64,000 nt of DNA from Verrucomicrobiia bacterium. GTDB taxonomy: Bacteria > Verrucomicrobiota > Verrucomicrobiia > Limisphaerales > Pedosphaeraceae. How positions within the stretch are numbered: the first letter of the stretch is position 1; each line of letters opens with the position of its first letter. The notes under the pieces were generated by a model, which saw only the letters and a program-made list of their open reading frames with translations, was not told the DNA's origin and made no database searches. The DNA lies in NCBI GenBank assembly GCA_036268055.1, contig DATAUW010000036.1, forward strand, positions 62,001 through 126,000. The letters run 5' to 3'. The translations under genes and the position numbers were made by a program. Below are positions 52,373-60,801 of this stretch, one piece after another.

Positions 52373-53998
52373 TCATTGCTTCTCCCCCGTCACCGAGCGC
52401 GCTTCCAGAAATGTCTTCAACTCCGCTGCCGCTTTGCCGCCAAAGCCCGGCACTTCCGAGATTTGTTCCACGGTGGCCAGTCGAAGCCGCTGAACTGAAC
52501 CAAACTTTTTCAACAAGGCCGCCTTGCGCCGTTCGCCAATGCTTGGAAATTCATCCAGGATGCTCTCCGAAATTTTCCGCAGCCGCAATGCCGCGTTGTA
52601 GGTATTCGCGAACCGATGCGATTCATCGCGGACGCGTTGCAACAATTTCAGCGCGCCCGTGTCGTGCGAAAGCCGCAACGGCTCGCTCTTTCCCGGTTGA
52701 TAAATCTCCTCAAATTCCTTCGCCAGCCCGACGATAGGAATCGCGTTCAAGCCGAGTTTCGCCAACTCCTCACACGCCGCGTTCAACTGTCCTTTGCCGC
52801 CATCAATCAAGATCAAGTCCGGCATGTTTCGCGGCACGGGATTGAGTTGCGCCGGTAATTTTTCTTTTCCTTTTTTTGTTTCTTCGATGACGGGAAGCAA
52901 TTCTCCGGTGGCGCCTGGAGAAGTTGTTTGCGTTTCAGAAATTTTCGGCGGCGCGCCTTCTTTCAACAGACGTGAGTACCGGCGTCGCACCGTTTCCGCC
53001 ATGCACGCAAAATCGTTTTGCCCGACCACAGTCTTCATCTTGAACTTGCGATAGTTCGAGCGGTCGGGCCGCCCATTTTTGAAACTCACCATGGACGCCA
53101 CGGCGAATGTCCCGCTGATATTTGAAATGTCGAAACCCTCAATGCGCATCGGCGGTCCGGGCAGATTCAACACTTGCCCCAACTCGGCGAGATCGCGTTG
53201 GGGTTCAATCGCCACCGGCAGCGTGTAAGGCAGCCGCTCAAATTTATTGGTGCGGCTCGTCGTCTGTTTCAAATCCGCGATGGCGTCCCGATACATCGCG
53301 GCCTTCTCATAATCCTGCGCCGCCGCCGCCTTGCGCATTTCGTCGGTGAGTTGCTCCTGCATCTCCTCGCATTGGCCGGAGAGAAAATCGCACGCGGCCT
53401 TCACTTGCTCGAGATATTGCTCGCGCGTGACGTTGTTGATGCATGGGGCGGTGCAAAATTTCAAATTGCCGTAGAGGCAATGTTTGTAATCGCGTTCGGT
53501 CGGCGTGAGCGGACGGCAGCCGCGCAAATGAAATTGCCGGCGCACCATGTTCAGCGTATTGCGCAAGGCCGACGCATGCACGAACGGCCCGAAATAGCGC
53601 GCGCCATCCTCCTGCTTGAAACGCGTCAGGACGAAACGCGGGATGGGATCATTCAGGTTCAACTTGAGCATGAGAAAGCGTTTGTCATCGCGGAAGCTGA
53701 TGTTGTAACGCGGATGAAATTCCTTGATGAGTTTGCTTTCGAGCAGCAGCGCCTCGGGTTCGCTACGCACGATGTGGACATCCAGATCGTGGATCGCTTC
53801 CACGAGCGCCTTGAATTTCAAGTCCCAGCCGAACCGCCGCGACGGTTGGAAATACGAACTGACGCGCTTGCGCAAATCCCGCGCCTTGCCCACGTAAATC
53901 ACCGTGCCGAACCGGTCCTTCATCAGGTAAATCCCCGGCTTATGCGGTAACTCCTGCAATTTTTTTCGCAACGATTCTGGCGTGGACATATTCTTCAA
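52373..53998 (-). CDS. uvrC: Excinuclease ABC subunit C
   Basis: 541 residues. It makes the two incisions in nucleotide excision repair with UvrB. The GIY-YIG nuclease (about 17-95) has KPGIYLMKDRFGTVIYVGKA. A UVR motif at about 205-240 (EQLTDEMRKAAAAQDYEKAA) binds UvrB. The RNase H-like nuclease has EGFDISNISGTFAVASMVSF, LILIDGGKGQL and the catalytic His in DESHRFAN. Helix-hairpin-helix motifs end the protein (ERRKAALLKKFG, VPGFGGKAAAELK). It is shorter than E. coli UvrC (610), with reduced spacers but all catalytic parts. Confidence 0.96.
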   Translation of the reverse strand: MKNMSTPESLRKKLQELPHKPGIYLMKDRFGTVIYVGKARDLRKRVSSYFQPSRRFGWDLKFKALVEAIHDLDVHIVRSEPEALLLESKLIKEFHPRYNISFRDDKRFLMLKLNLNDPIPRFVLTRFKQEDGARYFGPFVHASALRNTLNMVRRQFHLRGCRPLTPTERDYKHCLYGNLKFCTAPCINNVTREQYLEQVKAACDFLSGQCEEMQEQLTDEMRKAAAAQDYEKAAMYRDAIADLKQTTSRTNKFERLPYTLPVAIEPQRDLAELGQVLNLPGPPMRIEGFDISNISGTFAVASMVSFKNGRPDRSNYRKFKMKTVVGQNDFACMAETVRRRYSRLLKEGAPPKISETQTTSPGATGELLPVIEETKKGKEKLPAQLNPVPRNMPDLILIDGGKGQLNAACEELAKLGLNAIPIVGLAKEFEEIYQPGKSEPLRLSHDTGALKLLQRVRDESHRFANTYNAALRLRKISESILDEFPSIGERRKAALLKKFGSVQRLRLATVEQISEVPGFGGKAAAELKTFLEARSVTGEKQ

Positions 53999-54151
53999 AC
54001 GGACGAATCCATATATGTAACCCGCTTTTAAAGTAATACAATCCTCGCCAATGGGAAGGCTTGGGGCGAGCCCGACAAATTTATCGGATTAAACGCCCGC
54101 CCGCAAAAAAATTTGTTACCTTTAAGCCACCGCGTAAATATATGGAGTGAA

Positions 54152-55921
54152 ATGTCGAATGACGATCTAACCTTGCTGCGCGATTATTCCCGGGACCGTT
54201 CCGAGGATGCCTTCGCCGCGCTCGTCACACGCTATGTGAATCTTGTTTATTCAGTGGCGCTGCGGCAAACAGGCGATCCGCATCTCGCCGAGGAAATCAC
54301 CCAAGCGGTTTTCATCCTGCTCGCGCGCAAGGCCGATTCACTGGGATCGAAAGTCATTTTACCGGGCTGGCTTTGCCGCACCGCGCGAAATGTCGCGGCC
54401 AATGCGCTCACTCTTCAACGGCGGCGGCAACATCGCGAACAGAAGGCATATATGGAATCTCGGTTGAACGAACCCGGGCCGGAACACGATGCCTGGCAGC
54501 AAATCGCCCCGCTGCTCGATGCCGCGATGGACCAGCTCGGCCAGCAACATCACGACGCCGTCGTGCTGCGTTTTTTCGAGAACCGCAATTTCAAGGACGT
54601 CGGCGTCGCGCTGGGCGTAAGCGAAGACGCAGCCAAGATGCGGGTGAGTCGCGCGCTGGAAAAGTTGAGAAAGTTTTTCACGAAGCGCGGCGTGGTTTCG
54701 AGCGCGGCCAGCATCGCCGGAGCCATTTCCACTAACTCCATCCAGGCCGCGCCCGCCGCGCTTGCGGGCACGATTTCTGCCGCCGCATTTTCTGAAGCTG
54801 CCACGTCCATTTTCACCGCGACCAAAGTCATTGCCATGACCACTCTGCAAAAAGCCATCATCACCGCGGCCGTCGTCTCCATCGTCGGCGCGGGAATTTT
54901 CGCCGTGCGGCTGAACTCGCGGTTGCGCGAACAAAATGAAGCGTTCCAACAACAACAGGCATTGCTCGCCAGTCAACTCGAGCAATTACAACACAACCGC
55001 GCCGACGCCTCCAACCGGATCGCATCGTTGACGGGTGAGCTGGCGAAGAACCGGCGCAACGATGCGGAGTTGCTCAAGCTTCGCGGCGAGGTGACGCAAT
55101 TAACAGGGGCATCAAGTGAGCCAAGTGCGGCTGCGGAAAAAATTTGGCTCAACAAAATCGTGAAGCTCAAAAAGATTCTCCAGGAGAGGCCCGACAAGCG
55201 GGTTCCCGAGATGCAATTTTTGACCGAGAAGGATTGGGGCGACGCCTCGTGGGACGCGGATTTCGATACCGAGGACGGAATCCGCGTGGCCTTGAGCAAC
55301 CTGCGCGGCATGGCCGAGAACACGTTCCTGAATGAGATGATGAAGGCGGCGATGAAAAAATATCTCGCGGCCAACAATGACATTTTGCCCGCGAGCCTGC
55401 TTCAGCTTGAGCCATTCTTCGATGTGCCGGTCACGGACGATATGTTGCAGCGCTATAAGCTGGTTCAAACTGGCAAGGTGGATAATGCGGCCGCCCTCGT
55501 GGAACTCACCGGCGAAACGGATCCCGACTACGATTCAAACCACGGCATGTCCATCAACGGCGCATGGGGCGGCGGATTCAACCGGGTTCAGCAAGCCATT
55601 CAAACCGCCGCGACTGCGTATGCTGGCGATAACAATGGCCAACTGCCTACTGACCCTTCACAAATAACTTCTTATCTTTCCCGGACGGTGGACGCGGCGA
55701 CCGTGCAAAAATATTTGAACCAAATGGCCGCCGATCGTCCGCCATCGGATGTGATTATATTAGGCTCCGCGCTAAAAGCCTACGCTGATCAAAACAACGG
55801 AAAAGAACCGGAAGACCCGGCTGGCTTGATGCCTTATATCACCACTCCCGAACAAAAAGCGGCGCTTCAGCGAATCATCGCCCAATACCCCTCAAAGTCC
55901 GCCGCCCAAACCGGTAAATAA
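54152..55921 (+). CDS. Membrane-tethered ECF sigma factor with outer domain
   Basis: 589 residues from ATG 54152 (GGAG at about 54144-54147). Sigma region 2 (about 6-75: DAFAALVTRYVNLVYSVALR and EITQAVFILLARKA) and region 4 (about 118-178: HHDAVVLRFFENRNFKDVGV and SEDAAKMRVSRALEKLRKF) form a full ECF sigma factor. An Ala-rich hydrophobic link (about 181-225) follows, then a transmembrane helix (about 234-254, KAIITAAVVSIVGAGIFAV) and a coiled coil (about 255-315). A large C-terminal domain follows, with repeats like AYAGDNNGQLPTDPSQITSY and AYADQNNGKEPEDPAGLMPY. Known: such fused sigma factors occur in Verrucomicrobiota. Inferred: the outer part senses envelope state and may replace a separate anti-sigma factor. 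Confidence 0.9.
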   Translation: MSNDDLTLLRDYSRDRSEDAFAALVTRYVNLVYSVALRQTGDPHLAEEITQAVFILLARKADSLGSKVILPGWLCRTARNVAANALTLQRRRQHREQKAYMESRLNEPGPEHDAWQQIAPLLDAAMDQLGQQHHDAVVLRFFENRNFKDVGVALGVSEDAAKMRVSRALEKLRKFFTKRGVVSSAASIAGAISTNSIQAAPAALAGTISAAAFSEAATSIFTATKVIAMTTLQKAIITAAVVSIVGAGIFAVRLNSRLREQNEAFQQQQALLASQLEQLQHNRADASNRIASLTGELAKNRRNDAELLKLRGEVTQLTGASSEPSAAAEKIWLNKIVKLKKILQERPDKRVPEMQFLTEKDWGDASWDADFDTEDGIRVALSNLRGMAENTFLNEMMKAAMKKYLAANNDILPASLLQLEPFFDVPVTDDMLQRYKLVQTGKVDNAAALVELTGETDPDYDSNHGMSINGAWGGGFNRVQQAIQTAATAYAGDNNGQLPTDPSQITSYLSRTVDAATVQKYLNQMAADRPPSDVIILGSALKAYADQNNGKEPEDPAGLMPYITTPEQKAALQRIIAQYPSKSAAQTGK

Positions 55922-56513: not shown

Positions 56514-57053
56514 TCACGCGACTTCGCGCGCATCCACGCGCGTCAACTTCGGTTCCACGAAAAACGACTCCTCCTGAACCACTTGCGCGCCGGCCTTCCG
56601 CAAATCAGCCTCGTTCAAAATCTGCGCGGCGACGTCAGCCAAAATCTGCTCCTTATTGATTTCCTCTTTCACGCGGATGTAGGCGTGGCCCCACGCCAAA
56701 TCACGGAGCGTTTGCAACACGCTATCCCACTTGCATTTGGAAACCGTTTTCAACTTCGGCGTGCCCGTGCGAAAGCCCGCGATGCCGTGCGTGAACTCGA
56801 TGGATTTTCGCTGGCCGAACTCCGCCGGGTTCGCCTCGGCCCATTCGCGCGCAGTCGCGGTTTTTTCTTCCAACACTTGCGCGAGCGAAGCGAGGCGTCC
56901 CTCATAACTGTCGCGTACACCCTGTAATTCGGCATCCATATTCGCGGCGAGCAAGGTTTCATTGAGTTTCAGACCGGCGATTTCGCGCATGAGCAATTCC
57001 ATTTCGGCGCGGGTTTTGAGGACGGGCGTTTTCAGTTTGATGCGGTTGTTCAT
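56514..57053 (-). CDS. Mu Gam-type host-nuclease inhibitor/DNA end-binding protein
   Basis: 179 residues from ATG 57053. Family text: EMELLMREIAGLKLNETLLA, a long helical pair (about 15-75), EWAEANPAEFGQRKSIEFTH, GIAGFRTGTPKLKT and the tail VVQEESFFVEPKLTRVD. Known: Mu Gam is a Ku-like protein that shields DNA ends from exonucleases. Here it is on a host-like chromosome without other phage structural genes. It follows an HTH-type gene on the same strand, which is divergent from a self-cleaving repressor, so expression may be SOS-linked (inference). Confidence 0.88.
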   Translation of the reverse strand: MNNRIKLKTPVLKTRAEMELLMREIAGLKLNETLLAANMDAELQGVRDSYEGRLASLAQVLEEKTATAREWAEANPAEFGQRKSIEFTHGIAGFRTGTPKLKTVSKCKWDSVLQTLRDLAWGHAYIRVKEEINKEQILADVAAQILNEADLRKAGAQVVQEESFFVEPKLTRVDAREVA

Positions 57054-57127
57054 GGAGCCTTTCGTGCTGGCCACACATAAGTGCGGCGGGTTGGTTTTTG
57101 TTTGAAAAATTCTTCCTTGCGTTGACC

Positions 57128-57160
57128 CGGATTCGGCGCTCATAGACCGCCGCTACCAGG
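57128..57160. repeat. Fragment related to the MITE-like element
   Basis: GGCGCTCATAGACCGCCGC repeats text inside the 18969-19066 element in rearranged order. It sits between two minus-strand genes. Confidence 0.4.
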
Positions 57161-57163
57161 AGA

Positions 57164-57838
57164 TTATGCCATTCTTCGTTGCTTTAAAAATTCCACGACA
57201 CTCGCGCGCGTGATCAATGGCGATGCCTTCGGACCACGCCGCAGACTAACTGCCGCGAACGCCCCGGCCTTCAGCAAATTAACGACATGCTGGCTCAGGC
57301 ACGAAAAACATTGGGCAATCTCCGTGCCGCGCAAAATCGGCTCGTGCGGAAAAAGTGTCTGGCGAAAAGTCGCCGCTGAAAGCCGCATCTTGATTTGAAA
57401 CTGACGCGCTGCCTGGCTGCGCGCGCGAAAATCTTTTCCGGGCGCGACGTTGGGTTTCACCACCATGCCCGCCGGCAAAATCCTTTCGATGATCTCAGCG
57501 AATTCCGCCGCTTCATCACGCCGCGGTTTTTGCGGCGGAGCCCAAAGACCCGTGTACTCAAATAAGCTTTGGCGTAGCACCCGCACCTCACGCCGCTCGG
57601 CGTCCGGGCGGCGAATATCAAACGCCCAGCGCAAATGTCCATCTTCGATCAAGGCCAGCACCTCGCGCGGTTTTTTGTTCAGGAACATGCAAACGGCGGG
57701 CATTGGAACCAGCGGACGCCTCGCCGTGAAACCAAAATCGAACGGACGTGGAATCGGCGCGACGACCGGGCGCGGCGGGCGTCCCCGGCGGCGGGCGGTT
57801 TGGCATTGGCCAAGTGGAATGGTGCGATGTCGCTTCAT
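57164..57838 (-). CDS. Putative DNA-binding protein with excisionase-like domains
   Basis: 224 residues from ATG 57838. A basic, Pro-rich N-terminus (KRHRTIPLGQ, RRRGRPPRP) precedes one helix-turn-helix-like segment (about 48-90, CMFLNKKPREVLALIEDGHL). A second lies at the C-terminus (about 165-222, EIAQCFSCLSQHVVNLLKAG then VVEFLKQRRMA). Each resembles the 'helix-turn-helix plus wing' of excisionase/MerR-like domains. Not a family I can name. It is divergent from the LexA/CI-type repressor gene with an 86-base shared control region, and lies 110 bases ahead of the Gam-type gene. Confidence 0.6.
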   Translation of the reverse strand: MKRHRTIPLGQCQTARRRGRPPRPVVAPIPRPFDFGFTARRPLVPMPAVCMFLNKKPREVLALIEDGHLRWAFDIRRPDAERREVRVLRQSLFEYTGLWAPPQKPRRDEAAEFAEIIERILPAGMVVKPNVAPGKDFRARSQAARQFQIKMRLSAATFRQTLFPHEPILRGTEIAQCFSCLSQHVVNLLKAGAFAAVSLRRGPKASPLITRASVVEFLKQRRMA

Positions 57839-57924
57839 GGCAGCTTGTAAAGACAGCATTGCTGGGAATATCTCCTTGCGTTTGGCACCAAAACCTCCAT
57901 ACTGAAGCTATCTTTAGGGAATTA
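57839..57924. promoter_or_regulatory. Shared control region of the divergent repressor/Gam module
   Basis: 86 bases between two divergent starts. It contains the palindrome CAGCA-T-TGCTG (57854-57864) and AT-rich boxes such as AATATCTCC and TATCTTTAGGGA that may be half-sites. It is the natural place for the repressor to bind and control both directions. The exact operator cannot be assigned by eye. Confidence 0.45.
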
Positions 57925-58584
57925 ATGCCTATGCGTCAACCAAAAAAAGCATCTTTAGAGCAAATATTATCAGAACGGCTGAGAATTTGCCGCCTGCGCT
58001 TGGGCCTGACTCAGCAGGGACTCGCTAAATTGACCGGTTTTTCGCTGAGCGCCATTGGGAATTGGGAGAGCCGCCAGAATTCACCGACGCCTACGAAACT
58101 GGCGGTGCTGGCCAAAAAACTTGGCGTGACGATTGATTACCTGCTTGGCAATGACAACACCGCGCCCCCGGCCAACGCTTCTTCGCGCGCGGAAATTCGC
58201 GAGGTTCCCATCGTGGCGTGGGCGCACGCCGGCGAACTGGTGGCTTACACCGACCTTGACGCCTCGTGGCACGAATACACCGCCACCACTTGCCGCGACG
58301 AAAATTGTTTCGCCGTGATCATCGAGGGCGATTCGATGGAGCCCAAATATGGCGCGGGCGACATCGCAATCCTGATGCCGAACGTCGAGCCGCGCAACGG
58401 TTGTCTGGTCGTTTGCAAATTGAAAAACGAAGGCGTGTTCTTCAAGTTGTTCCACCAGTCCAACGACGGCAAAATCTTCCGGCTTTCGAGTTACAATCCG
58501 GTTTATCCCGTCATGGAATGCAAGAAGGACGATTTCATTTGGATTTACCCAGTGGCGCAGGTGACAAAAAATGTGTGGCGATAA
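57925..58584 (+). CDS. LexA/CI-type self-cleaving repressor (HTH-XRE plus S24)
   Basis: 219 residues from ATG 57925. The XRE helix-turn-helix (about 17-72: LRICRLRLGLTQQGLAKLTG, SLSAIGNWESR) is followed by a peptidase S24 domain (about 93-210). The cleavage site is Ala102-Gly103 (VAWAHAGELV). Catalytic Ser137 lies in IIEGDSMEPKYGAGD and Lys174 in VFFKLF. The Ser-Lys spacing (37) and site-Ser spacing (35) equal those of E. coli LexA (S119/K156, A84), so RecA-stimulated autocleavage is likely. Divergent from the HTH and Gam-type genes, as a phage immunity repressor would be. Longer in-frame starts exist but lack a ribosome site. Confidence 0.9.
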   Translation: MPMRQPKKASLEQILSERLRICRLRLGLTQQGLAKLTGFSLSAIGNWESRQNSPTPTKLAVLAKKLGVTIDYLLGNDNTAPPANASSRAEIREVPIVAWAHAGELVAYTDLDASWHEYTATTCRDENCFAVIIEGDSMEPKYGAGDIAILMPNVEPRNGCLVVCKLKNEGVFFKLFHQSNDGKIFRLSSYNPVYPVMECKKDDFIWIYPVAQVTKNVWR

Positions 58585-58700: not shown

Positions 58701-58774
58701 CTAATCAATAATCCCCGCCCCCGCAAGCCGCATAACAAAACCAAATGCATTCATCTCCCACCCTCGCGGCGCAA

Positions 58775-59367
58775 CCGCGCCGCCCACCCCTTCCCACTAC
58801 CCGCTTGCGCTCTGTCTTAACCACGTCCGCAGGACTATAACGGCTGGCAGCATGTTTATTAAGATTTGTGACGGCGTAGGTTTTAATCAATTGTGCGTAG
58901 TCCACTTCGGCACCGAACGCTTGGTCAATCGCTTCTGGATACGCCGCCATTGCGTCGGACGTGATTTGCGGCTTATTTGGTGATGCGGCTCGCCAAATCA
59001 CTCATAAACGTCTTGGCGTGGTAGGAATCGCGCTTGCCGACAACGAACGAGGGAATGAGCTTGGAAGGGACATCCATCGCAATGAACGTCCAGACATCGC
59101 CCATACTGTCAATGGCTTCGAGTGCGCTGGCATTTTTTTCTTTTTGCCGATAAATCCCCAAATTTCATCCACTTCGATTTGCGGGCAGGTCAAGCCGCGC
59201 ATCTTTTCATCTTGAATCTTGGCGCACGCTTCGCCGACGCGAACACCCAAACGCATCACCGTATCGCGGTGAATTCCCGTCATGCGCTCAATGCTGCGAA
59301 TGCTGTTGCCTTCTGCCAGCATGGATACCGCCATTACTTTCTTTCCGGTTTCAAGGTTGTTTGCCAT
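58775..59367 (-). pseudogene. IS1-type transposase, frameshifted and truncated
   Basis: Starts MANNLETGKKVMAVSMLAEG, then SIRSIERMTGIHRDTVMRLG and IEVDEIWGFIGKKKK (first catalytic Asp). The frame shifts at an A-rich run near 59140 and continues DVWTFIAMDVPSKLIPSFVV and TFMSDLASRITK. It shifts again near 58985 and continues ITSDAMAAYPEAIDQAFGAE then YAQLIKTYAV. Homology fades after RYSPADVVKTERKRVV, so the C-terminal end with the last catalytic residue is lost. Two shifts plus truncation mark it as dead. No matching IS end was found on the left. Confidence 0.85.
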
Positions 59368-59446: not shown

Positions 59447-59611
59447 ATGGGCAGGCCGAAGCTCCCCAAAGGGGAAGCCAAAAGTGAGCTGATTCGCGCT
59501 CGCGTCACTCCGTCTGAATACAAATCCTTTGAAAATGCCGCTAAATCAGCGGGTAAGGATATTTCAGAATGGGCAAGAAAGACTCTTATTGATGCGGCGA
59601 TTTCGCATTAA
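59447..59611 (+). CDS. Ribbon-helix-helix small protein
   Basis: 54 residues from ATG 59447: MGRPKLPKGEAKSELIRARV, then TPSEYKSFENAAKSAGKDIS and EWARKTLIDAAI. This is the beta-strand plus two-helix pattern of DNA-binding antitoxins/CopG-like proteins. A longer frame reads back through the transposase region and is not favoured. Its stop overlaps the end of the convergent DUF262 gene. It may be an orphan antitoxin or an autorepressor acting on the inverted repeat upstream. Confidence 0.7.
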   Translation: MGRPKLPKGEAKSELIRARVTPSEYKSFENAAKSAGKDISEWARKTLIDAAISH

Positions 59612-60801
59612 ATCGTACTTACGATTTCCTTAAACAATTTTACTCTATCCTGCCTTTTTGCGGCGTCTGTCGTTTGCTTTTCCGAAAGGTCAATATAGCT
59701 CTTAATCTTTTTTGCTATTGTGGGGGTGATGCCGTAAGGACTATTTCCTGTAATAGCAGCATCAAATTTAATCAAATTATCAACGCGCGCAGGGGGAAAT
59801 GCCGTCACATAATTTATAGGCAAAACATGTCGAATCTCCTCAATTAATGCGGTGACCAAAATATAGAAATGCGTTTGATCTGTAGCCCATCTGGTTTTGC
59901 CAAGATTAGAACTTTTGTAAGCGCGTTCCAAAAATGAAAAAACGCGGCTGATTTGATCAACCTGGAGTGATGTCAATTTGGGGGTTTTGGGGCGGCTTTG
60001 TTTGCGGCTTATCAAATCTTTAAGAATTTGGCTCGGTTTGCGATGTTGCGAAGTGGCGGCAAACAAAGCGAATTCACATAGTCTTTCCCACATAACATCT
60101 ACGCGGTTCTGCGCATCATCAACCCGATTGACTATGTCTAAATGCTTCATCACCCTCGAAAACGAAGACGATTTTATTTTTATGTTTGTGTCCCTACCTC
60201 GCTTTTCTTGAATGGCAATCAAATGGAAAAGCTGCTTGAAAAAAGCGTCTTTCAGATAAAGTGCTTTTACGATGTCAAAGCGAGTTACTTTGATTCCAGA
60301 CTGATTGATGTCCACGAAAAGCTGTATGATTTCTTCGAGAGTTACCTCGTCATCAAAATCAATTTCAATAATTGATAATGGATAATCTCTAAACTTTATC
60401 ACTTCGCTATTGGAAAGCTCTTTTAAGCTTTTTTGGCTCCCCGCGACCGTCGTTTTAAAACCCACCTGCTTTCTGTCCTTTCGACTGTGGATATAGGACG
60501 TCCATTTAGGAATTCTCAAATCGTCTCGGTCGTGTCCAATAAAAAGCAATATGCTTTCAAGCCTTTGCTTTCCGTCAAGAATAACGAAATTGTTTTTTGA
60601 GCCAACGGGCGTTTTGTATAAAAAAACGGCAGGAACAGGCTTTCCCTCAATTATGTTTTTCAACAAACCTTGGCGCAGTTTTGAAGGCCAAACTCGCCCC
60701 CTCTGGAAAGGCGGCGTTAAATCAATAACCTCGTCGTTAAACGATCCAACAAGTTGTTCGATTTTCCATTGGCTTAGGGAGAATTTCACGCGGCGAATCA
60801 T
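59608..60801 (-). CDS. DUF262 (GmrSD-N/ParB-like) protein
   Basis: 397 residues, AT-rich. The N-terminal DUF262 domain (about 8-120) has IDLTPPFQRGRVWPSKLRQG, LLKNIIEGKPVPAVFLYK and NFVILDGKQRLESILLFI. The DGKQRL motif is the ParB/Srx-type active site, tied to NTP-dependent nuclease action in GmrS-type enzymes. The remaining 270 residues are helical, without the HNH-type GmrD/DUF1524 domain, so it is not a complete GmrSD enzyme. Likely defence-related cargo next to a dead transposase (inference). Confidence 0.82.
   Translation of the reverse strand: MIRRVKFSLSQWKIEQLVGSFNDEVIDLTPPFQRGRVWPSKLRQGLLKNIIEGKPVPAVFLYKTPVGSKNNFVILDGKQRLESILLFIGHDRDDLRIPKWTSYIHSRKDRKQVGFKTTVAGSQKSLKELSNSEVIKFRDYPLSIIEIDFDDEVTLEEIIQLFVDINQSGIKVTRFDIVKALYLKDAFFKQLFHLIAIQEKRGRDTNIKIKSSSFSRVMKHLDIVNRVDDAQNRVDVMWERLCEFALFAATSQHRKPSQILKDLISRKQSRPKTPKLTSLQVDQISRVFSFLERAYKSSNLGKTRWATDQTHFYILVTALIEEIRHVLPINYVTAFPPARVDNLIKFDAAITGNSPYGITPTIAKKIKSYIDLSEKQTTDAAKRQDRVKLFKEIVSTI

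Follow-up and report, generated by a model that had tools for sequence, protein, structure and literature searches.

A divergent repressor, winged-helix and Gam cassette in a Verrucomicrobiia chromosome: descent from a Mu-like prophage and possible retention by the host

Phages use Gam to shield DNA ends, and copies of its gene in chromosomes have so far been ascribed to prophages. What, then, is a Mu-type Gam gene doing in the chromosome of a Verrucomicrobiia bacterium, in a tight unit with a helix-turn-helix (HTH) gene and a divergent repressor gene? The unit lies in a stretch of 64,000 nucleotides, here called the window, which covers positions 62001-126000 of contig C36 (DATAUW010000036.1) in a 5.1-Mb assembly (GCA_036268055.1, labelled G000). 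A first-pass annotation had offered two alternatives, a domesticated system induced by the SOS response and the control region left behind by a lost Mu-like prophage, and both prove to be partly right. From its sequence, the cassette is best read as derived from a Mu-like prophage, namely from its early control region, with MuA, MuB and their neighbours lost. That the host has kept this control region as a repressor-controlled Gam switch is a fuller reading, to which we give about an even chance. The cassette is made up as follows (aa, amino acids; bp, base pairs):

56514..57143, minus strand: Mu-type Gam, homologue of a DNA-end-binding protein (209 aa; PF07352, PHROG 491 and, by profile, PDB 2p2u)
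57164..57859, minus strand: tandem winged-HTH protein (231 aa; described by structure model and family count; outside named families)
57860..57930, no strand: divergent control region of 71 bp between the assumed starts of the HTH operon and the repressor
57902-57917, inside the divergent region: dyad CTGAAGCTATCTTTAG, a weak candidate operator
57931..58584, plus strand: XRE and S24-peptidase repressor, predicted to be self-cleaving (217 aa; HTH_3, Peptidase_S24, catalytic residues)

By its whole-domain sequence profile, the first of these proteins is placed in Mu Gam (PF07352; 108.4 bits, cut-off 28.3; E=4e-31, covering positions 2-149 of 149). It also matches PHROG 491, 'Mu Gam-like end protection' (E=1e-30), and a profile of its relatives reached the host-nuclease inhibitor Gam of PDB 2p2u (E=8e-20). 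Among 50,697 phage records, 14 Gam matches were found, each below 60% identity to the window Gam. The HTH gene precedes Gam by 20 bp on the same strand, with an alternative later ATG at 57838, and the repressor gene diverges from both with 71 bp between the assumed starts, an arrangement that the first-pass annotation had described correctly and in which the Gam-type gene is now confirmed by PF07352.

The repressor contains an HTH_3 domain (E=7e-13) and a Peptidase_S24 domain (E=2e-16), with Ala100-Gly101, Ser135 and Lys172 separated by 35 and 37 residues. In LexA, the cleavage site, serine and lysine are numbered 84/85, 119 and 156, and the LexA-like spacing that had been pointed out earlier is borne out by these residues. 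A DNA-binding domain together with an S24 domain bearing Ala-Gly, Ser and Lys is the signature of a LexA-like self-cleaving repressor, and cleavage is predicted on this basis. Exact spacing varies within the repressor family: the repressors of G052 and of the phage in G006 have distances of 35 and 38, and that of G002 has 38 to the lysine, its Ala-Gly aligning at the same position. The relatives of the window repressor in the PDB are P22 c2 and lambda repressor, and a scan of viral contigs with its sequence found no relative. It shares with the S24 phage repressors and LexA (lambda CI, P22 c2) the XRE HTH and S24 domains and the Ala-Gly, Ser and Lys at 35 and 37, but it precedes a Gam operon rather than phage lytic genes. 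A longer version starting at a GTG at 57748 is unlikely, because it would overlap the HTH gene.

The protein encoded between these two we take to belong to a tandem winged-HTH family and not to be a known Ner. Searches of Pfam, PHROG and NCBIfam gave no match to it, nor did the 50,697 phage records, and HTH_17 scores below cut-off in three of its relatives. A member of the family is present in 45 of 320 order genomes (E<=1e-3), as it is in 10 of 384 in a class sample (E<=1e-6), eight of these ten lying within the order. A structure model from a 27-sequence alignment (pLDDT 80.7) shows two strand-helix-helix-strand-strand-helix units, at residues 50-103 and 175-227. Its best structural neighbour is mycobacteriophage Xis (Z 4.9, root-mean-square deviation 1.9, 55 residues aligned), followed by BldC (Z 4.4, deviation 1.9, 51 aligned), both with weak scores over a short domain, and Foldseek with the model returned nothing at E<=0.001. 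An excisionase/MerR-type winged-helix pattern fits each half, but with Z below 5 and without a Pfam match for the window protein. Each half thus has the secondary-structure order of the Xis, BldC and MerR-type proteins, whereas the window chain holds two such units and a helical linker, and the structural scores are weak. Copies of the family also occur in clusters, at L255 9229-13036 and L258 667-1724, with three in G227:C71 and two in G114:C935.

Where could such a unit have come from? The control region of phage Mu is ordered as c and, diverging from it, ner-A-B-...-gam, with a repressor that is not of the S24 type. The window cassette shares with it the divergent repressor and early operon and the Gam family; it differs in its S24-type repressor and in the absence of MuA, MuB and a late operon. 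In those Mu-like phages of these hosts that carry the HTH gene, MuA and MuB lie between HTH and Gam: a repressor diverging from HTH-MuA-MuB-...-Gam is found in G006:C670, G259:C272 and the viral contig L128; the order HTH-MuA-MuB-Gam, but with no repressor called, occurs in G018:C28, G295:C25, G243:C225, G238:C33 and L147. Among 80 viral Gam loci, MuB lies within 4 kb upstream in 61, whereas the HTH gene occurs anywhere in four and within 1.5 kb of Gam in none. We also observed that, in the G003 prophage (L025 8404-11326), a DDE transposase gene lies between repressor and Gam in place of HTH, MuA and MuB.

With the profiles used, no transposase A/B, capsid or integrase gene was found near the cassette within the window, and the window as a whole gave no portal or terminase call and no match to the late proteins of G002, a relative considered further below. 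The locus itself has neither the MuA nor the head, tail and packaging genes of a Mu-like prophage. MuA of the phage clade had no match in the whole window assembly with a 13-row profile that found G006 in the same search and may miss divergent MuA; PF09299 matched nowhere, controls included, and is uninformative on MuA. To this extent the first-pass statement that capsid, transposase and integrase genes are lacking stands. Beyond the right edge of the window, however, two late genes lie on the same contig:

C36:135615-136598 (L021 9615-10598), minus strand: truncated Mu portal, N-terminal part only, 15 kb right of the repressor and outside the window
C36:144788-146311 (L021 18788-20000), minus strand: intact terminase of 507 aa, 24 kb right of the repressor and outside the window

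The portal fragment is 73-74% identical to the portal of G003 over 93-109 aa; it was recognized from its neighbourhood and by BLAST, as the Portal_Mu profile gave no match above threshold over the window genome. The terminase is 56% identical over 400 aa to that of viral contig L320, with 403 aa of it compared. The host genes lgt and miaA lie between the cassette and these relics, and the truncated portal is separated from the terminase by a gene encoding a 1912-aa protein with subtilase and Ig-like domains. Because the gene order is that of related phages minus MuA and MuB, and because late-gene relics lie nearby, the suggested origin of the cassette as the control region of a lost Mu-like prophage holds as far as descent goes.

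The same relics fit a second explanation, namely that the cassette is inert, a control region left from a Mu-like prophage that broke recently, intact by chance and functionless after an inversion between repressor and late genes and a number of deletions. We regard this as possible but doubtful. Both relics are on the minus strand, with the portal nearer the repressor and then the terminase, 15 and 24 kb to the right and beyond lgt and miaA; this may be what one inversion breaking between the repressor and the late operon has left, or it could be chance. In a second viral set of 42 loci, found by a terminase related to that of the window genome, 11 (some of them near-copies) have the HTH gene on the minus strand and the terminase on the plus strand, so that the early genes point away from the late operon, which fits a single inversion; Gam was called in three of the 42. 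The IS1-like remnant close to the repressor is likewise in keeping with a broken prophage. However, all three reading frames (Gam, HTH and repressor) are open and complete and no catalytic residue is lost, in contrast to the genome's own Mu portal, which is truncated. Moreover, the pairing of HTH and Gam without MuA and MuB recurs elsewhere, in one lineage under strong purifying selection.

This recurrence was seen in the sample of 320 genomes of the order, in which Gam occurs at 38 places in 29 genomes; wide flanks were taken for 33 of these places, and 31 of them gave a Gam call. MuB lies within 2.3 kb upstream of Gam in 16 of the 31 loci. In seven others (G000, the window genome itself, and G002, G005, G018:C27, G088, G228 and G238:C73), an HTH gene lies within 0.9 kb of Gam and neither MuA nor MuB was called over the nearest 10 kb, or as far as the stretch examined reaches, the G005 cassette contig being only 5.9 kb long. 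G131 was rejected as a stand-alone cassette, as its HTH and Gam genes are 0.9 kb apart but a two-piece terminase lies 5.6 kb away, and G004 was rejected for a partial and weak HTH match. The remaining six loci are at contig ends or ambiguous (G006:C320, G005:C456, G003, G001:C89, G210 and G233). Of these, G006:C320, where Gam lies at the contig end with host-type genes after it, was left unclassified, and MuB was not called upstream of Gam in the G003 prophage or in the ambiguous loci G001:C89 and G210.

The surroundings of four of these cassettes look host-like. Ten flank proteins of the G002, G018, G088 and G238 cassettes include transglutaminase, KDO transferase, histidyl-tRNA synthetase, a pilin-like protein, a histidine kinase and accA; four of the ten have no Pfam match or match a domain of unknown function (DUF) only, and none matches a PHROG concerned with head, tail, integration or replication, although the kinase and the pilin-like protein do match PHROGs of other kinds. 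A full prophage bordering the cassettes of relatives, which the first-pass annotation had named as the finding that would speak against it, was not found among the flank proteins scanned at these four places, but G002 does have a late operon that looks complete on another contig. The G018/G088 homologous block consists of the three genes and almost nothing more (1,527 columns, 80% identity). A mini-Mu or satellite with its own ends was considered and rejected, the homology between G018 and G088 ending no more than about 25 bases from the outer stop codons; no paired terminal repeats were seen framing the window cassette. Farther out, a conserved gene pair with one and the same orientation recurs in G018 and G088, some 16 and 22 kb to the left of the cassette; nothing between matches, and a loosely shared region is possible.

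The regulators differ between these cassettes. Complete S24 repressors accompany those of the window and G002, and the G005 repressor, although cut by the contig end, keeps the start of the S24 domain and its Ser. An S24 domain was not found in the short XRE regulators of G018 and G238, of which G088 and G228 have close homologues. Since the regulators of these four have no detected S24 domain, SOS control is not general to Gam cassettes; within these cassettes, control of the S24 type, with its predicted link to SOS, is seen only in the window's family. The Gam homologue of G238 and G228 reaches 22.6 bits in Pfam, below the cut-off of 28.3, but is supported by profile comparison (profile-profile probability 96.8, E=2e-10); a Foldseek search with it gave no match at E<=0.001 and was uninformative.

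In a Gam tree of 63 rows, from which five duplicate and 19 Bacteroidota-type rows were left out and in which G006:C320 and G131 were not labelled stand-alone, the stand-alone label needs four changes, two of them forced by well-supported branches. An earlier tree with duplicate loci, and with G006:C320 and G131 counted as stand-alone, needed seven. The bootstrap did not fully converge, long branches come together in the tree, and the composition of the G018/G088 rows is unlike. The HTH tree (43 rows, with three identical pairs kept and long branches) needs five changes, four of them forced; one of the five is owed to a duplicate of G228. By the Gam tree, stand-alone HTH-Gam cassettes would thus represent about four lineages, two of them forced. 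The Gam of G238 and G228 is placed with phage Gams of their own genus and their HTH protein with that of other phages, and the source phages were therefore probably mosaic.

If such cassettes are of use to their hosts, selection should be visible in them. The G238/G228 cassette occupies one chromosomal site; its flanks are collinear, and their proteins are 67-96% identical except for one 51-residue piece at 49%. The ratio of non-synonymous to synonymous change (dN/dS) is 0.17 for HTH, 0.07 for Gam and 0.09 for the XRE regulator, and two flank genes give 0.20 and 0.27. In HTH, Gam and the regulator, synonymous change exceeds non-synonymous change with Fisher p values of 3e-11, 9e-19 and 4e-6, respectively. 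From the shared site and the low dN/dS, we conclude that these genes have been kept in place as working genes. Between G002 and G005, synonymous (pS) exceeds non-synonymous (pN) difference in all three genes (p 2e-23 to 6e-9), and the G018/G088 cassette genes are likewise constrained; because shared flanks are missing or distant in these two pairs, part of their constraint may date from life in a phage. The recurrence of the cassette and the selection in G238/G228 do not look simply like random decay. The first-pass proposal of a domesticated SOS-induced module therefore gains indirect support for domestication, from the roughly four lineages and the strongly selected G238/G228 site, but not for SOS control as a general feature, given four cassettes without a detected S24 domain.

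Selection of this kind also bears on a third explanation, that the repressor, with the HTH protein, has been kept to block superinfection by related Mu-like phages and that Gam is a passenger. Such phages with the same HTH family do occur in the order and in viral contigs, and G052 keeps a divergent repressor and HTH pair without Gam. However, in the sole pair with collinear flanks it is Gam whose dN/dS (0.07) is the lowest among the three, and the type of regulator differs between lineages. We therefore consider an immunity relic unlikely.

Most likely, the tight divergent three-gene unit has been kept by its host as something useful. On this account, a prophage would have lost MuA, MuB and nearly all of its late genes, leaving the repressor, HTH and Gam. 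The S24 repressor would keep the HTH-Gam operon off until RecA filaments on damaged DNA induced its self-cleavage, upon which the tandem winged-HTH protein and Gam would be made. Gam dimers could then cap double-strand ends and slow exonucleases, gaining time for joining or repair, to the presumed benefit of the host. The SOS step and the function of Gam are taken here from established knowledge of these families.

Several observations weigh against retention as a host switch. First, the evidence for keeping in place comes from one pair only, G238/G228, whose cassette is present in just 2 of 49 genomes of that genus; the G018/G088 cassettes differ in their immediate flanks, and those of G002 and G005 have no common flank gene on the stretches examined. 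Selection on the window's own cassette, from a genus with no second genome in the sample, is something that we infer; the comparison of its Gam with that of G006:C320 (pS 0.79, pN 0.30) spans an interval that may include phage life. Second, four of the seven cassettes, all outside the window's family, have the short regulators without a detected S24 domain, and G052, of another family, keeps its S24 repressor and HTH pair (L257 3910-5181) with no Gam match. Third, an HTH-Gam neighbourhood may occur within some phages, as a weak, partial HTH match (E=8e-3, about 60 residues) follows Gam by 1 kb in L359 and another such match lies beside Gam in the G004 prophage. Fourth, the dyad in the control region is not significant as an operator on its own, because the neutral pattern AAGN4CTT is not enriched in the window (13 observed, 12.3 expected), and a search with a pattern built from the dyad itself is circular. 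Finally, the window genome already has Ku.

The arrangement in G002 raises the question of whether particles were ever involved. Its cassette is on C53, and a late operon of about 19 kb, in which terminase, portal, head protease, scaffold and major head protein are recognized beside unnamed genes, is on C90 (L314 14294 to L315 13178), where no early gene was called in the surrounding 60 kb and the neighbours are host-like. G005 shares the terminase, portal and neighbours with this operon, with pS>pN at p<0.01 in 6 of 10 matched frames (portal p=1e-62); the remaining four, without pS>pN, overlap the six in other frames. MuA of the phage clade had no match in either genome. This split could reflect a prophage divided by rearrangement or a gene transfer agent. 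It is very unlikely, in our judgement, that the window cassette is part of a Mu-derived gene transfer agent under remote control, with cassette and late operon at separate loci, no transposase, and particle genes that have decayed in the window genome. The separation of the two loci in G002, the constraint on the genes shared with G005 and the missing MuA would all accord with it. However, the late genes of G005 are on a 5.5-kb contig, which leaves a shared site not shown, late genes related to those of G002 occur in viral contigs, a split prophage explains the same facts, and the MuA profile misses divergent MuA. A complete set of particle genes is present in part in G002 and is not present in the window genome, where the portal is truncated and no other G002 head gene was found in the window and a further 20.8 kb; no particle is expected from this genome, because its portal is broken. 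Only a little less improbable is a broader scenario in which a Mu-like phage was dismantled and taken over, with the transposase-less repressor and HTH-Gam cassettes serving as host damage switches, the G002/G005 cassette and its separate late operon forming a Mu-derived gene transfer agent, and the window cassette kept for Gam after its particle genes decayed.

The genes next to the cassette add further detail. On the Gam side, 3 bp separate the Gam stop codon from that of a convergent GNAT gene. This neighbour is present in four of eight family genomes, the window genome counted; in the other three, no cassette gene lies beside it, and other genes of the window or its contig match weakly (22-48%). 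A conserved chromosomal site for the window copy was considered on this basis and set aside, the comparison being uninformative because the sample has no second genome of the window's genus. The gene at 52373-53998, which we take for uvrC, lies 2.5 kb from the window Gam, and about 6 kb separate its homologue in G002 (75-83% identical) from the Mu late operon; this uvrC-like neighbour of both possibly marks a shared integration region, or is there by chance. The gene at 54113-55921 encodes a sigma-70-type factor with a long C-terminal extension beyond the sigma regions. On the repressor side lies an IS1-like transposase remnant (58705-59367), of which 59002-59367 matches NF033558 at 40.6 bits (cut-off 100) and 58705-59001 is probably its continuation in another frame. 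Next come a small NikA-like ribbon-helix-helix gene (about 59450-59611) and, adjoining it in an AT-rich stretch, a gene for a GmrSD_N-only protein of 397 aa (59608-60801).

A search for Ku gave a match in the window genome that is unlinked to the cassette; G002 and G005 are the only two of eight family genomes without one, and the search gave no match in G002, G005 and G018. Gam as a substitute for Ku was not retained as a claim, as the window genome has Ku and three genomes without a Ku match are too few.

Chromosomal Gam orthologues are stated to derive from prophages (d'Adda di Fagagna 2003, as cited in PMC1378119 and PMC8987985), and the two citing papers hold that Mu Gam protects DNA ends, can aid joining and is Ku-like. 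The window Gam is likewise phage-derived and resident in a bacterial chromosome. Where those papers describe chromosomal Gams as prophage-derived or within defective prophages, however, the window Gam is paired with a regulator and an HTH protein in a compact, recurrent cassette, and in relation to Ku-based end joining, in which Gam is held there to be Ku-like and to aid joining, the Ku of the window genome is separate and unlinked. A limited keyword search of titles and abstract openings found no account of stand-alone HTH-Gam cassettes. Gam has also been reported, in a preprint, to license Gabija defence (PMC12407980).

In summary, the cassette under selection in G238 and G228 hints that hosts put such phage leftovers to use. 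A host-kept and separately regulated Gam operon of about four origins, two of them forced by the tree, would be a test case for the recruitment of phage end-binding proteins into bacterial repair. The cassette genomes without a Ku match, G002 and G005, make the substitution of Gam for Ku testable, beside a window genome that has both. If host-encoded Gam is inducible, it could also matter for immunity, given the link to Gabija reported in that preprint (PMC12407980).

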